From positions 56,641-120,640 of the forward strand of contig QKAF01000130.1 of NCBI GenBank assembly GCA_003246455.1: a stretch of DNA of 64,000 nucleotides, read 5' to 3'. The notes below the pieces were generated by a model, which searched no databases, had not been told where the DNA came from, and saw nothing but the letters and a program-made list of their open reading frames with translations. Origin of the DNA: Bacteroidota bacterium (GTDB taxonomy: Bacteria > Bacteroidota > Ignavibacteria > SZUA-365). Below, one piece after another: positions 47,343-53,198 of this stretch (positions are counted from its first letter, which is position 1; each line of letters opens with the position of its first letter). The translations under genes and the position numbers were made by a program.

Positions 47343-48557
47343 TTAGCGAACGATCATTGTTCTTGTTGCCGTCACGCTCCCGCTGCTAAGACGATAGATA
47401 TACATGCCGGGTGCGAATCCCCGGGCGTTGAATCGAACGACATGGCTGCCGGGCAGAATGTCTGCATCGACCAGCTTCGCCATGCGTCGGCCGAGGAGGT
47501 CGAAAACCTCCAGACGGACCGGCTGCGGACTGTCGATTCCGCTGAGCGAGTAGGAAATGACCGTTTCGCCGGAAGGCGAAAAGGGATTCGGAACATTCTG
47601 CGCAAGTTCCAGTGCGAACGGCGCGGCCTGATCCGGGCGGGCGATGCCCGTGGTCGTCACGGCTGCTTCATGCCAGTTTGCAGCCGCGGTTTCGCCGCAC
47701 GCCACGACCGAGATCTGAAGCTCATGCATCGCGGCATCCGGATCCGGAGATTTGAATGCCACCGTGTGTTCCTCGAAGCCATGTCCCATGAAGGTCGCGA
47801 TCTGCGTGAAGACGGTTTGCAGATCGTTTGCGTTCGGAGTCTGGAAGTAGCTTCCACCGGTCAGCAGTGCGATGAGTTGGAGATCCGCCGCATTGACAGC
47901 GCTGCCGAGACCGATGGTGAACACGCGGAGATTGTAGAGCTGCGCGAGCGCAATGATCTGCGTGGGCGTATGGACACTGCTGTTGTCTCCGCCGTCCGTG
48001 AGCACCACCACTGCCTTCTTCTGGTTCGATCCGTTGGTCTGCAGTTCCGTGAGTCCTTCCCAGATGCCGTCCCAGACAGCCGTGGCTCCGGAGGCGGGAA
48101 GCTGCTGCACGGCGGCGTCCAGCGCTGTCAGACTCGATGTCATGCTCTGCTGCAATGTTACGGACTGTGTGAACCAGAAGATTGCCCCTTCGTCCGTCAC
48201 GCTGTCCATCAGCTGAATGAACGCGCTTCCTGCGATCTTGGCGGCTGCATTGGCGGATCCACTCATACTGCCGCTGGCGTCAAACACGAGCACAGCGGAA
48301 ATCGGATTGTGCACCATCGGAGAGGAGCTCTCGATGATACTGAAGTCATTGACCGGCTGGCCGTTGTCCGTGACCGCCAGCTGACTGCGCGTCAGGTTGA
48401 ACTGCGTTTCACCGTCGCAGCGAATCGAAACGGTAAACAGTCCGTTCGGATTCCCTTTCACGACGTGCATCGTGGTGATGCGCGCCGCGGTCTGTGCGAA
48501 CAGGGAAGTTGAGATCAGCACGAAAAGCAATGCTGCGATGGTCGAAAAGTGTTTCAT
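47343..48557 (-). CDS. secreted von Willebrand A-domain protein with T9SS C-terminal domain
   Basis: MIDAS VFDASGSMSGS; VVVLTDGGDNSS; C-terminal AQNVPNPFSPSGETVISYSLSG...LEVFDLLGRRMAKLVD...GMYIYRLSSGSVTATRTMIVR; start MKHFST at 48557. Confidence 0.88.
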   Translation of the reverse strand: MKHFSTIAALLFVLISTSLFAQTAARITTMHVVKGNPNGLFTVSIRCDGETQFNLTRSQLAVTDNGQPVNDFSIIESSSPMVHNPISAVLVFDASGSMSGSANAAAKIAGSAFIQLMDSVTDEGAIFWFTQSVTLQQSMTSSLTALDAAVQQLPASGATAVWDGIWEGLTELQTNGSNQKKAVVVLTDGGDNSSVHTPTQIIALAQLYNLRVFTIGLGSAVNAADLQLIALLTGGSYFQTPNANDLQTVFTQIATFMGHGFEEHTVAFKSPDPDAAMHELQISVVACGETAAANWHEAAVTTTGIARPDQAAPFALELAQNVPNPFSPSGETVISYSLSGIDSPQPVRLEVFDLLGRRMAKLVDADILPGSHVVRFNARGFAPGMYIYRLSSGSVTATRTMIVR

Positions 48558-48601
48558 ACCTACCTCCGAATGGGTTCCAATGGGCATGTCGACCTGCCTG
48601 G

Positions 48602-49345
48602 CTATGGTGTTTTCAGTTTGTGCACGATATCCCGGCAGATGTCGTCGATCTGCGAAAGGAACGGCTGTGAATAATGCTGCCCCCCTGTGGACTGCGCGAT
48701 ATTGCGCAGCACCACTTCCTGGCTGGTGAGTCTGAGTGCTATGGAATATACAGGAATGTTTTCGCCTTGTCCAAGCGTGGTGATCTTGCTCGGGGTTCCG
48801 AGCGTGCTCGAATTATCGTCGCTGTCGGTGATGATGATGACCGCCCGGCGGGCGTGTGTCGCCTTCGACTGCAGTTCGAGCATCCCCTTGTAGATGCCGT
48901 CCCACATCGCGGTCGCGCCATCGATCGGAATGGCGTCGACGGCGGCGCGCAGCAGCGAGACCTGCGAAGTGATGTGCTGCGCGATCGTGGCTGTCTGCGT
49001 GAAGAAGACGACGACGCCTTCGTCCTTCGCGCCATCGAGGGAATCAAGCGCCGCGTTGCATCCGTCGCGGAACGCCTGCGCAGTCTGCGGGGTGATGCTG
49101 CCGCTCGCATCCACGACGAGCGCGACGGAGAAATGGACCTGCTGAGCGGTGGAATCTCCACCGGAGGTATCGGGCGGGAGGATGATGGAAATCGGAGTTC
49201 CGATGTTGTCCGCGAGGGGGATGGAAATCCTGTCGACAAAGCGATTGCGCGGCGTCTGCACGTCGAGCGGGGAGTCGCAGGCACTGTAGAATAGTGTGAA
49301 CAGCGCCGCGGCGGCAAGAAGGACCGGAATACGTAGAACGCGCAT
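48602..49345 (-). CDS. von Willebrand A-domain lipoprotein (paralogue of downstream gene)
   Basis: Lipobox ALFTLFYSACDS; MIDAS VVDASGSITPQ; AVIIITDSDDNSS. Confidence 0.88.
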   Translation of the reverse strand: MRVLRIPVLLAAAALFTLFYSACDSPLDVQTPRNRFVDRISIPLADNIGTPISIILPPDTSGGDSTAQQVHFSVALVVDASGSITPQTAQAFRDGCNAALDSLDGAKDEGVVVFFTQTATIAQHITSQVSLLRAAVDAIPIDGATAMWDGIYKGMLELQSKATHARRAVIIITDSDDNSSTLGTPSKITTLGQGENIPVYSIALRLTSQEVVLRNIAQSTGGQHYSQPFLSQIDDICRDIVHKLKTP

Positions 49346-49348
49346 GTA

Positions 49349-50509
49349 TCAGAACTCGTACGAGACGCCGTAGGTCATACCCACCTTGTTTGTGCTGAAC
49401 CAGTTATTCTGGAAGCGATACATCAGCACGCTGCCTTCGGCGCCAACGACCACCGCGATGCGGTCGAACGGCCGGAACTTGAGGCCCAGCGTGGCGCGGG
49501 CGAGCGGACCGAGATCGAAGGCGCCGCCGGCCTGGAGCTGGGCAAATGGGTGGACGTGCGGGAGCAGGGCATCACCTGTAAACTGGTATACCGCCGTCGC
49601 CCAGTATGCCAGGGGATTCTGCTCATACCGCACGCGCATCCCAAGTTCTGTTCCGAAGAAGTGCTGAGAAAAGGCTTCCCTCCCCCCCTCGATGCCGATG
49701 GCGTGGTTGTCGCCCAGGGCGTACAGCACGCCGACATTCATATTGGAAAACCAGGGATCAGACTGCGAGACCACCGTCGGCGACGGGTCTGATCTCATGG
49801 ATACGTTCCGAGCATAAAACGTCACACCGTCCGGACGCGGAATCAGGTCGTAGAAGCGGACCTGTTCGTTCCGCACCCGACCGGGCTGCTCCGGCGCGGC
49901 GACCGCGGCGGCGAGGAGTTCAAGGTCGCGCGGGGTGACGTCGCGGACTTCGACGGCCGGCGGAAGGAGGGCGGAAGGATTTTCCCTCATGGCCGGTGTG
50001 ACGGCGGACCTTGCAGGTGACGCCGGAGGAATCGCAAGATCGGAGATCGGGGCGGGCTCTTCGATCACGACCGTTTCGCCCGGGGTGCTCACCACGCGTT
50101 CGACGATCGACCCGACTGCATCGAAGGGCAGCGGGAACTGGAAGTAGAGCAGCACCGCCGCGACAGTTGCCAGGATGGCCGATGTCGTGCTGAACCACAT
50201 GTGACGAAGCGCCGAAGCACCGGCCGCATGCGCGGTCGCATTATTCGCCGACGCGGCGTTTACCGTGGCAGAGGGGATCGTGAAGCCGAGAGATGCAAAA
50301 ATGGCCGCGGTGGCGGACGCCGGGGGCGTGAACGCCTCGATGTCATGCTGCACCGCCTTCCGAATGGCGATGTGATCCTGCATTTCGGCACGAAGCTCCG
50401 CGTTCGAAGACAGCTTCTGGAAGAGCACTTCTTCATGGGTGCCGCCCAGTTCGCCGTCCATGAACGCATGCAGCATTCGTGAATCCATATATTCGTTGGG
50501 ATTGCTCAT
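49349..50509 (-). CDS. anti-sigma-factor-like protein with TM helix and C-terminal beta-barrel-like domain
   Basis: N-term DSRMLHAFMDGELGGTHEEVLFQKLSSNAELRAEMQDHIAIRKAV (anti-sigma-like, no Cys); TM HMWFSTTSAILATVAAVLLYFQF; C-terminal amphipathic strands ending VGMTYGVSYEF. Confidence 0.75.
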   Translation of the reverse strand: MSNPNEYMDSRMLHAFMDGELGGTHEEVLFQKLSSNAELRAEMQDHIAIRKAVQHDIEAFTPPASATAAIFASLGFTIPSATVNAASANNATAHAAGASALRHMWFSTTSAILATVAAVLLYFQFPLPFDAVGSIVERVVSTPGETVVIEEPAPISDLAIPPASPARSAVTPAMRENPSALLPPAVEVRDVTPRDLELLAAAVAAPEQPGRVRNEQVRFYDLIPRPDGVTFYARNVSMRSDPSPTVVSQSDPWFSNMNVGVLYALGDNHAIGIEGGREAFSQHFFGTELGMRVRYEQNPLAYWATAVYQFTGDALLPHVHPFAQLQAGGAFDLGPLARATLGLKFRPFDRIAVVVGAEGSVLMYRFQNNWFSTNKVGMTYGVSYEF

Positions 50510-50539: not shown

Positions 50540-51103
50540 CTATCCACTGAATTCTGTCATATACGGGGCCAAAATGTCGCGAATCTTCTGTTTCGCCCTG
50601 AAAATGCGCACTTTCACATTCGAGAGGGACGCACCGACAATTTCAGCGATTTCCGCATAACTGAGTCCTTCATATTCCCGCAGAACAAAAACCTCGCGAT
50701 AGTCATCCGGCAGCATGTCGAGCGCCGTCGTGATAAGCTGCAGGAATTCCGTCTTTTCTGTCGTGGAAGGCTGCACGAGGGACTGATAATCCTCGAATTC
50801 CACGGTCTGCTTTCTGTTCCTTCTCTGGTTGAGGCAGAGATTCCGGGCGATTTTCAGCAGATAGCCCGGCACATTGGTCATCTCACGATCTTTCTGGGCG
50901 CTTTCGTAAAAACGAATGAACGTCTCCTGATACACATCCTGCGCTTCGTCGCGCTGACCGAGAAATCGAAGGCAGTACGCAAACACGCGACCTCCGTATC
51001 GAGCATAGAGCTCGGTGAAGGCTGCTTCCGCTTTCTCCTTTTCACCTGACAGGCGGTAAAACAGTTCAGCGTCCGGGGTGTTGTCTGTCTTGTTTCCGGA
51101 CAT
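50540..51103 (-). CDS. ECF RNA polymerase sigma-70 factor
   Basis: GRVFAYCLRFLGQRDEAQDVYQETFIRFYES (sigma2); LPDDYREVFVLREYEGLSYAEIAEIVGASLSNVKVRIFRAKQKIR (sigma4). Confidence 0.95.
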   Translation of the reverse strand: MSGNKTDNTPDAELFYRLSGEKEKAEAAFTELYARYGGRVFAYCLRFLGQRDEAQDVYQETFIRFYESAQKDREMTNVPGYLLKIARNLCLNQRRNRKQTVEFEDYQSLVQPSTTEKTEFLQLITTALDMLPDDYREVFVLREYEGLSYAEIAEIVGASLSNVKVRIFRAKQKIRDILAPYMTEFSG

Positions 51104-51223
51104 TGCGACGGCGTAGAAAGGTTCGGGGTATCAGTTATTCATTCGTTACATATACGTGATACAGCGTACAATGTTAGTAACACCCCAATATAGGGAAGGT
51201 TACAGGAAAGTGACAGATCAGGC

Positions 51224-51384
51224 AGGAAGCAGGAGGCAGGAAGCAGGAAGCAGGAGGCAGGAAGCAGGAAGCAGGAGGCAGGAGGCAGGAAGCAGGAGGC
51301 AGGAAGCAGGAGGCAGGAAGCAGGAGGCAGGAGGCAGGAAGCAGGAGGCAGGAGGCAGGAAGCAGGAGGCAGGAAGCAGGAAGC
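51224..51384. repeat. heptanucleotide tandem array (aggaRgc)x23
   Basis: 161 bp of uninterrupted 7-bp units alternating aggaagc and aggaggc. Confidence 0.97.
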
Positions 51385-51389
51385 AGGAA

Positions 51390-51509: not shown

Positions 51510-53198
51510 ATGTCTCGATTGCGTGTCGTTTTACCGGCCCTCGTGCTCGCGGGTCTGCTCATTTCCTGCGGAACATCGGAGAAAGATCGCATGACCGAAG
51601 AATTCAAAGCTTTTCTGACCAAGTATGAGAGCACGGTTATTCCCCAAAACAGGGAAGCCGCACTGGCATATTTCAATGCAACGATCTCGGGTGACGAAGC
51701 GGACTATACCCGCGCGGCTGATCTCGAAGTGGAACTGACGAAGGTGTTCGCCAATAAGGAAGATTTCCAGACGCTCAAGCGCATCAGGGATGCGAAGGCC
51801 ATCAGCGACCCGCAGCTGCGCCGGCAGCTGGACGTCATTTACCTCTCCTACCTCGAGCGGCAGATCGACGAGAGCAGACTCGAGGAAATGATCCGTCTGC
51901 AGAACGAAAACGAAAAGAAGTTTTCGACGTTCCGCGCGGAGGTGAACGGGAAGAAGCTCACGGACAACGAAATCGAGGAAATTCTGCGCAATTCCACGAA
52001 CAGCGCGGAACTCGAAGCCGCGTGGACTGCGAGCAAGGAAATCGGGAAGGTGGCGGCGCCGGACGTTCTGCGCCTGGTGCGCATGCGCAATACGGCAGCC
52101 CGCGAACTCGGTTTCAAGAATTATCACGCGATGCAGCTCGAACTCAGCGAACAGGATCCGGAAGAGATCGCGACGCTGTTCGACGAGCTCGACGAACTCA
52201 CCGCCGGCGCATTCGCTCAGCTCAAGGCGGACATGGATGTCAAGCTTGCGAAGCGCTGCAACGTGACGGTGGAAGAACTGATGCCGTGGCATTATCAGAA
52301 CCGCTTTTTCCAGGAAGCGCCGAAAATCTACGACGTCGATCTCGATGTCTTCTACAAGGACAAGGATATCGTCGAGCTGGCAAAGCAGTATTACGCGGGA
52401 CTCAACCTTCCGATCGAGGACCTGGTCGAAAAGAGCGATCTCTACGAGAAGGAAGGCAAGTATCAGCATGCCTACTGCACGGACATCGACCGCGAAGGCG
52501 ACGTGCGTGTGATCTGCAACATCAAGCCCTCGTACAACTGGATGAATACGACGCTGCACGAATACGGGCATGCGGTGTATGACAAGTTCAACGACCGCAG
52601 TGTGCCGTGGTCGCTGCGCGAACCGGCCCATACGTTCACGACCGAGGCCATCGCGATGTTGTTCGGTCGCCTGGCCAGCAATCCCACATGGCTTGAGCAG
52701 GTTGCCGGGGTTCCCGCCGACCAGGTCGAAAAAGTGGCGGACGTGATGTTCCAGTCTCTGCGTCTCGAACAGCTGGTGTTCAGCCGCTGGGCACAGGTCA
52801 TGTACCGCTTCGAAAAGGCGATGTACGAGAATCCCGATCAGGATCTCAACGCCCTCTGGTGGCAGCTGGTGGAAAAATACCAGATGATCAAGAAGCCGGA
52901 TGGACGCGACAATCCCGACTGGGCATCGAAGATCCACGTGGCACTGTACCCGGCCTATTATCACAATTACCTGATGGGCGAACTTCTTGCATCCCAGCTG
53001 CATGCGCACATCTGCGGCAAGATCCTCAACAGCGAGAATCCCCGCAGGGAAGCGTATGTCGGACGTACGGAAGTCGGGACATTCCTGATCGACAACGTGT
53101 TCAAGCCCGGCCGCACGCTTCTGTGGAACGACATGATCGAAAACGCCACCGGCGAGAAACTCACCGCGAAATACTATGCGGCGCAGTTCGTGAACTGA
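51510..53198 (+). CDS. M2 (ACE-like) family metallopeptidase, lipoprotein
   Basis: HExxH in NWMNTTLHEYGHAVYDKF; FTTEAIAMLFGRLA; lipobox LAGLLISCGT. Confidence 0.85.
   Translation: MSRLRVVLPALVLAGLLISCGTSEKDRMTEEFKAFLTKYESTVIPQNREAALAYFNATISGDEADYTRAADLEVELTKVFANKEDFQTLKRIRDAKAISDPQLRRQLDVIYLSYLERQIDESRLEEMIRLQNENEKKFSTFRAEVNGKKLTDNEIEEILRNSTNSAELEAAWTASKEIGKVAAPDVLRLVRMRNTAARELGFKNYHAMQLELSEQDPEEIATLFDELDELTAGAFAQLKADMDVKLAKRCNVTVEELMPWHYQNRFFQEAPKIYDVDLDVFYKDKDIVELAKQYYAGLNLPIEDLVEKSDLYEKEGKYQHAYCTDIDREGDVRVICNIKPSYNWMNTTLHEYGHAVYDKFNDRSVPWSLREPAHTFTTEAIAMLFGRLASNPTWLEQVAGVPADQVEKVADVMFQSLRLEQLVFSRWAQVMYRFEKAMYENPDQDLNALWWQLVEKYQMIKKPDGRDNPDWASKIHVALYPAYYHNYLMGELLASQLHAHICGKILNSENPRREAYVGRTEVGTFLIDNVFKPGRTLLWNDMIENATGEKLTAKYYAAQFVN

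Follow-up and report, generated by a model that had tools for sequence, protein, structure and literature searches.

A probable dual-membrane-spanning anti-sigma factor with an RseA-like domain in the Ignavibacteria

Does a single protein at this locus join a cytoplasmic anti-sigma domain to an outer-membrane β-barrel? The question is raised by one ORF in the window, the whole 64,000-nucleotide stretch of DNA analysed here. The initial annotation, made from the sequence alone, placed a 386-aa ORF at 49349-50509 and read it as an anti-sigma-like domain, a transmembrane (TM) helix, a linker, and a barrel-like C-terminus. This ORF is present on the minus strand and ends in YGVSYEF. We consider it likely that its product is a dual-membrane-spanning (Dma-type) anti-sigma factor that releases its sigma factor upon proteolysis of the tether and the TM helix. 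As an architecture, the proposed union of anti-sigma factor and outer-membrane barrel in one protein holds, but the novelty that the annotation implied does not, as such a layout has already been published (PMC13088901, PMC9308784).

Domain architecture of the protein and its family

Relatives of the window protein were found in 23 of 41 related genomes, and the family counts given below refer to 119 distinct relatives, 113 of which are full-length. The relatives repeat the single-ORF architecture, and internal stops are absent from the full-length matches; thus, 49349-50509 is not a chance ORF. An artefact of gene fusion or frameshift is likewise ruled out by a single ORF common to more than 100 proteins. 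The nearest named record is a Bacteroidetes metagenome-assembled genome. When the phylum was surveyed with a profile of 51 sequences, a match was obtained in 81 of 300 genomes. The full-length matches listed all fall within the class of the window, and elsewhere the N-terminal part alone matched. The window's genome (G000) apparently carries four copies, one of them split over two contig ends, and at least seven are present in a related genome (G020). Two partial frames at contig ends, on C110 and C13 (L024:2-745 and L025:2667-3674), paired by comparison with an intact relative from the same genus (L028), are apparently the halves of one further family member.

We modeled the whole protein with AlphaFold2 using 51 family sequences. 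The anti-sigma-like region, which the initial annotation had described as free of cysteine and of the HxxxCxxC zinc motif, is predicted to be a Cys-free domain of four helices (residues 4-17, 23-35, 37-60, and 64-73), with a pLDDT of about 92-96 over residues 11-60 and about 96 over residues 11-50. The one TM helix expected is predicted as a single helix whose boundaries could be refined to approximately 99-124, and the most hydrophobic 19-residue stretch starts at residue 111. The linker, originally put at roughly 100 aa, now extends over approximately residues 125-228; residues 131-220 have almost no predicted structure (pLDDT about 46-58). Across the family the linker is rich in Ser, Ala, Thr, and Pro (11%, 11%, 9%, and 8%, respectively). 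Its sequence is unconserved, yet a minimum length is kept: linkers of intact family members range from 97 to 257 aa (median 142), and the single shorter one (78 aa) belongs to a copy truncated by a contig end. At ~0.34 nm per residue, 97 residues would extend to ~33 nm, which suffices to cross the periplasm. The combination of a length floor and free sequence is consistent with a tether that has to span the periplasm.

A C-terminus of about 160 aa had been proposed to resemble a barrel with an aromatic end, and structure prediction had been suggested as the check, with a soluble, non-barrel fold as the outcome that would speak against it. The prediction instead gave a high-confidence eight-strand barrel (pLDDT about 96), with strands running from residue 229 to 385, mostly at a pLDDT of 93-98. 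Modeling the barrel alone with 102 sequences yielded a mean pLDDT of 93.2 and a pTM of 0.85. In structure searches of the PDB, the best 50 matches of either model were all outer-membrane or designed transmembrane barrels, including Ail, NspA, OmpA, OprF, and OmpW. A soluble barrel such as a lipocalin was ruled out, with none among these 50 matches. TM-scores to small barrels, taken by target length, were moderate at about 0.4-0.7; in these models, the predicted fold class is clear and a close structural relative is absent among the matches.

Two family-wide features are in line with an eight-strand outer-membrane barrel of the OmpA/OmpX/OmpW/NspA type, as predicted from amphipathic strands, fold, and assembly signal. 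When hydropathy is averaged across the family, each of the eight strands shows alternation, and a strict C-terminal assembly signal is present in 59 of the 113 full-length members, compared with 0.5 in shuffled sequences, 3 of 586 other ORFs, and none of 129 sigma factors. The window protein and its close orthologs share a Y-x-F C-terminus. Approximately 40% of members lack an aromatic C-terminal residue, and some carry short tails. Overall, the architecture of the family is real and well supported. The features of the locus are listed in Table 1.

Table 1. Coordinates of the predicted features of the anti-sigma locus in the window
Feature	Position	Strand	Basis or detail
Likely Dma-type anti-sigma factor, whole ORF	49349..50509	-	386 aa, C-terminal end YGVSYEF
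Predicted RseA-like four-helix anti-sigma domain, residues 4-73, without zinc motif	50291..50500	-	AlphaFold2, profiles
Predicted TM helix, residues 99-124	50138..50215	-	AlphaFold2 helix and hydrophobicity
Predicted disordered linker, residues 125-228	49826..50137	-	Low pLDDT
Predicted 8-strand outer-membrane-type β-barrel, residues 229-386 (158 aa)	49352..49825	-	AlphaFold2, PDB structure matches, hydropathy
Predicted barrel-assembly (β) signal TYGVSYEF, residues 379-386	49352..49375	-	Family-wide strict-signal counts
ECF sigma factor of 187 aa, upstream of the anti-sigma ORF with a gap of 30 bp	50540..51103	-	Sigma70_r2 5e-15, Sigma70_r4_2 1e-20
Predicted autoregulatory ECF promoter TGTAACCTT-N12-GTGTTA	51178..51204	-	74 bp ahead of the sigma start codon
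Putative VWA-domain lipoprotein, 3 bp downstream of the anti-sigma ORF	48602..49345	-	VWA 4e-10
Exported protein with a VWA domain and a type IX secretion sorting domain	47343..48587	-	VWA 8e-14, Por_Secre_tail 7e-8

Proposed sigma factor partnership and predicted regulon

The N-terminal domain is difficult to capture with existing profiles. The window protein matches Pfam RseA_N at E=0.0083, with 17.1 bits against a curated cut-off of 24, and the best PDB profile match of the domain is the RseA chain of the sigma-E complex (1or7_C, E=0.075). Among the 51 family members, counted at E up to 0.01, 6 match RseA_N, 5 match zf-HC2, and 11 match the anti-sigma model NF052375; most members match no anti-sigma profile. 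No FecR family appeared among the Pfam and NCBIfam matches of the window protein up to E=1. The HxxxCxxC motif occurs in none of the 113 full-length members, which rules out a zinc-finger anti-sigma identity. Class I anti-sigma domains without zinc exist, so the missing motif does not exclude class I (PMC7406223), and the predicted layout, in which a helical anti-sigma domain precedes one TM helix, is that of class I (RseA-like) factors. According to a survey, just 6% of the ECF sigma factors of Bacteroidetes have a class I anti-sigma domain nearby (PMC7406223). Hard-to-profile proteins like the one studied here may partly explain this low figure.

Gene order and covariation lend further support to the anti-sigma role proposed in the initial annotation. 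An ECF sigma gene on the same strand immediately precedes 116 of the 119 distinct relatives, at a median distance of 16 bp; the three without a visible sigma gene lie at contig ends with no more than 115 bp of contig left. The sigma gene of the window, whose best NCBIfam model is NF058625 with a score under the model's cut-off, occupies an equivalent position next to orthologs of the anti-sigma ORF. Pairwise distances of the sigma factors correlate with those of the N-terminal domain at 0.75 and with those of the barrel at 0.62, and the partial correlations, with shared ancestry still in the signal, are 0.60 and 0.30, respectively. Among the top 100 column pairs covarying with sigma, 51 fall in the N-terminal domain, where 32 are expected. 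The contrast between the two domains, in a test that still includes shared ancestry, favors the N-terminal domain as the part that contacts sigma.

The class of the window also contains a 153-aa RseA-like protein (L089:1414-1875) that has a TM helix and no barrel and is encoded behind an ECF sigma gene, and open frames of 156-170 aa resembling it recur (family f11). Such a barrel-less protein could plausibly represent the ancestral form of the window family.

Upstream of the sigma gene, TGTAACCTT-N12-GTGTTA occurs exactly in 8 of 8 ortholog loci, in DNA that apart from this motif is hardly alignable among the orthologs; the copy in Table 1 is the sole exact one in the window's genome. Relaxing the motif to TGTAACNT-N13-GTGTTA gave 28 sites in 12 related genomes, compared with none for the reversed control. 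Eight of these sites precede the sigma gene, 11 precede exported VWA proteins, and 9 precede other genes, several of which, judged by eye, have exported- or lipoprotein-like starts. The target on G000:C2 is 42% identical to the VWA protein of the window operon over the VWA region. Both VWA genes downstream of the anti-sigma ORF, which probably belong to the same operon, are kept beside its orthologs. The simplest reading of these sites is that the sigma factor is autoregulated and probably controls exported VWA (von Willebrand-type) proteins.

When the VWA protein of the window was searched against its own genome, about 20 matches to the VWA region were obtained at E<1e-20, along with roughly a hundred matches to the C-terminal sorting domain alone. 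These matches suggest that the genome encodes a large exported repertoire. The intergenic region between the sigma gene and a divergent plus-strand gene (51510-53198; a probable lipoprotein metallopeptidase with an HEYGH motif) holds a 7-bp tandem repeat, GCAGGAA, at 51222-51389 (24 copies, 90% matches), with 17 bp separating it from the predicted sigma promoter downstream. The repeat was not seen in the upstream DNA examined for an ortholog from the same genus (L001), and it could modulate the strength of the promoter or undergo phase variation.

Proposed mechanism and its alternatives

The sequence shows how the genes and domains are arranged, the predicted fold, the assembly signal, the promoter motif with its targets, and the presence of proteases; what we infer is sigma binding, location, signal, and proteolysis of the window protein. 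In the mechanism that we propose, the RseA-like N-terminal domain would bind and silence the sigma factor encoded just upstream. The single helix would cross the inner membrane, the long disordered tether would cross the periplasm, and the eight-strand barrel, guided by its C-terminal assembly signal, would sit in the outer membrane. The trigger would be a change at the outer membrane, such as a ligand, damage, or failed barrel assembly. The tether would then be cut first and the TM helix next, probably by an HtrA-type protease followed by RseP, and the freed sigma factor would switch on its own operon via TGTAACCTT-N12-GTGTTA and raise the exported VWA-domain proteins. The window's genome encodes an RseP homolog with an HELGH motif as well as HtrA-type proteases, so stepwise proteolysis is possible; this is weak evidence because such proteases are common in bacteria.

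In a specific form of the dual-membrane explanation, the barrel would serve solely as a client of the barrel-assembly machinery. The anti-sigma factor would stay protected for as long as the barrel folds into the outer membrane. Failed assembly would expose the protein's own C-terminal YEF, and an HtrA- or DegS-type protease would respond by cutting the tether. Such self-reporting is in keeping with the Y-x-F end, the strong assembly signal, and the HtrA proteases and RseP encoded in the genome. In E. coli, unfolded outer-membrane proteins activate DegS through their exposed C-terminal peptides (PMC8103513). In P. vulgatus, induction of a system with this layout accompanies envelope stress and overlaps with what a BamA inhibitor elicits (PMC9308784). 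However, about half of the family lacks the strict C-terminal ending, and the divergent paralogs, which are numerous within a genome (G000 has four, G020 several), would duplicate one another if every one of them reported on a single assembly machine. By analogy, self-reporting via the C-terminal Y-x-F may be considered an attractive special case, and it is one that we regard as possible and, on balance, rather doubtful.

Two further explanations compete with a dual-membrane-spanning inhibitor. If the protein were a precursor cut after its TM helix, the free barrel would go to the outer membrane, the helical domain would stay behind, and no protein would span both membranes at steady state. 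The TM helix could serve as an internal export signal, and cleavage of an anti-sigma factor by signal peptidase is known for Bacillus RsiP (PMC8844934). Nevertheless, a simple precursor would not need the ~97-aa linker floor that intact members keep despite free sequence, and the described Dma proteins have been modeled as spanning both membranes (PMC13088901). Nor was a conserved cleavage site noticed by eye in the family alignment, and we judge a precursor to be quite improbable. The N-terminal domain could instead activate its sigma factor. FecR-type regulators of cell-surface signaling offer a precedent, as some are cut and their N-terminal fragment can be required for sigma activity. The profile likeness of the window protein, however, is to RseA, which is an inhibitor, and not to FecR, and loss of the anti-sigma factor activates the sigma factor in the characterized Dma-like systems (PMC13088901, PMC9308784). 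An activating role is thus highly improbable, and a dual-membrane-spanning inhibitor is the reading that we retain. Signaling from the outer membrane to the cytoplasm through one protein, together with a promoter motif and a short list of targets, makes both the signal and the cleavage route testable.

Comparison with known systems

The window protein shares with E. coli RseA a single TM helix and an N-terminal domain that weakly matches RseA_N and the RseA of the sigma-E co-crystal. RseA differs in having no outer-membrane barrel, and its signal consists of the C-termini of other proteins, sensed via DegS. In FecR/FecA systems, information from an outer-membrane barrel is likewise passed to an inner-membrane anti-sigma factor. 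In contrast to the window protein, which has no FecR match, these systems use two unfused proteins and a large TonB-dependent receptor.

The Dma family in Bacteroides, with reports from 2024-2026, was reportedly described by Pardue et al. in PNAS in 2024 (doi 10.1073/pnas.2321910121, as cited in PMC12596196). In Bacteroides thetaiotaomicron, Dma proteins consist of an anti-sigma domain, a TM helix, a disordered tether, and a C-terminal barrel, and the Dma1/Das1 and Dma2/Das2 pairs provide a precedent with experiments (PMC13088901). The window protein resembles both pairs in its N-terminal anti-sigma domain, one TM helix, tether, barrel, and adjacent ECF sigma factor, all within the Bacteroidota. 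The regulons differ: known Dma proteins regulate vesiculation and polysaccharide loci, with Dma2 and its sigma factor Das2 acting on vesicle production and glycan loci (PMC13088901), whereas the predicted regulon of the window family consists of VWA proteins. A second counterpart is the anti-sigma factor M0N98_03760 of Phocaeicola vulgatus, a gut member of the Bacteroidales, which is also predicted to span the periplasm, has a C-terminal outer-membrane barrel, and is encoded downstream of its sigma factor, M0N98_03761 (PMC9308784, 2022). Disrupting this anti-sigma factor switches on the sigma regulon, with longer O-antigen and protection from a toxin; the window family is likened to it by description (PMC9308784). 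Our literature search returned no report joining anti-sigma factors, Flavobacteria, and an N-terminal TM helix.

For a comparison at the sequence level, we gathered 23 long PF13568 proteins that share this layout, taken from members of the phylum lying outside the class of the window; we refer to them as Bacteroidia-type, a label that is itself inferred. Their N-terminal domain is short, and no similarity to that of the window family was detected (hhalign probability, 0.8%). The barrels of the two groups showed weak similarity (hhalign probability, 56%). When 200 genomes of the phylum were searched with the Bacteroidia-type profile, it matched in 40, none of them from the class of the window, and its distribution does not overlap that of the full-length window type. 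Outside this class, we also observed four proteins that combine a TM helix, a tether, and a barrel but differ in their N-terminal domain (L175:2140-3498, L176:2595-4121, L177:2457-3644, and L180:2455-3792). An ECF sigma gene lies upstream of each and overlaps it; these four are probably uncatalogued Dma-like proteins.

The layout itself is therefore already known, as the published Dma-type proteins attest. The window family differs in its predicted sigma-binding domain, which is RseA-like and dissimilar to its counterpart in the Bacteroidia-type proteins compared, in its confinement to another class of Bacteroidota, and in a predicted VWA regulon. A separate origin of the window family and Dma is one reading of this comparison, in which Dma1 and Dma2 are known by description and the sequences compared are the 23 Bacteroidia-type proteins. 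On that reading, non-overlapping distributions and dissimilar sigma-binding domains would mean that this layout was invented repeatedly.
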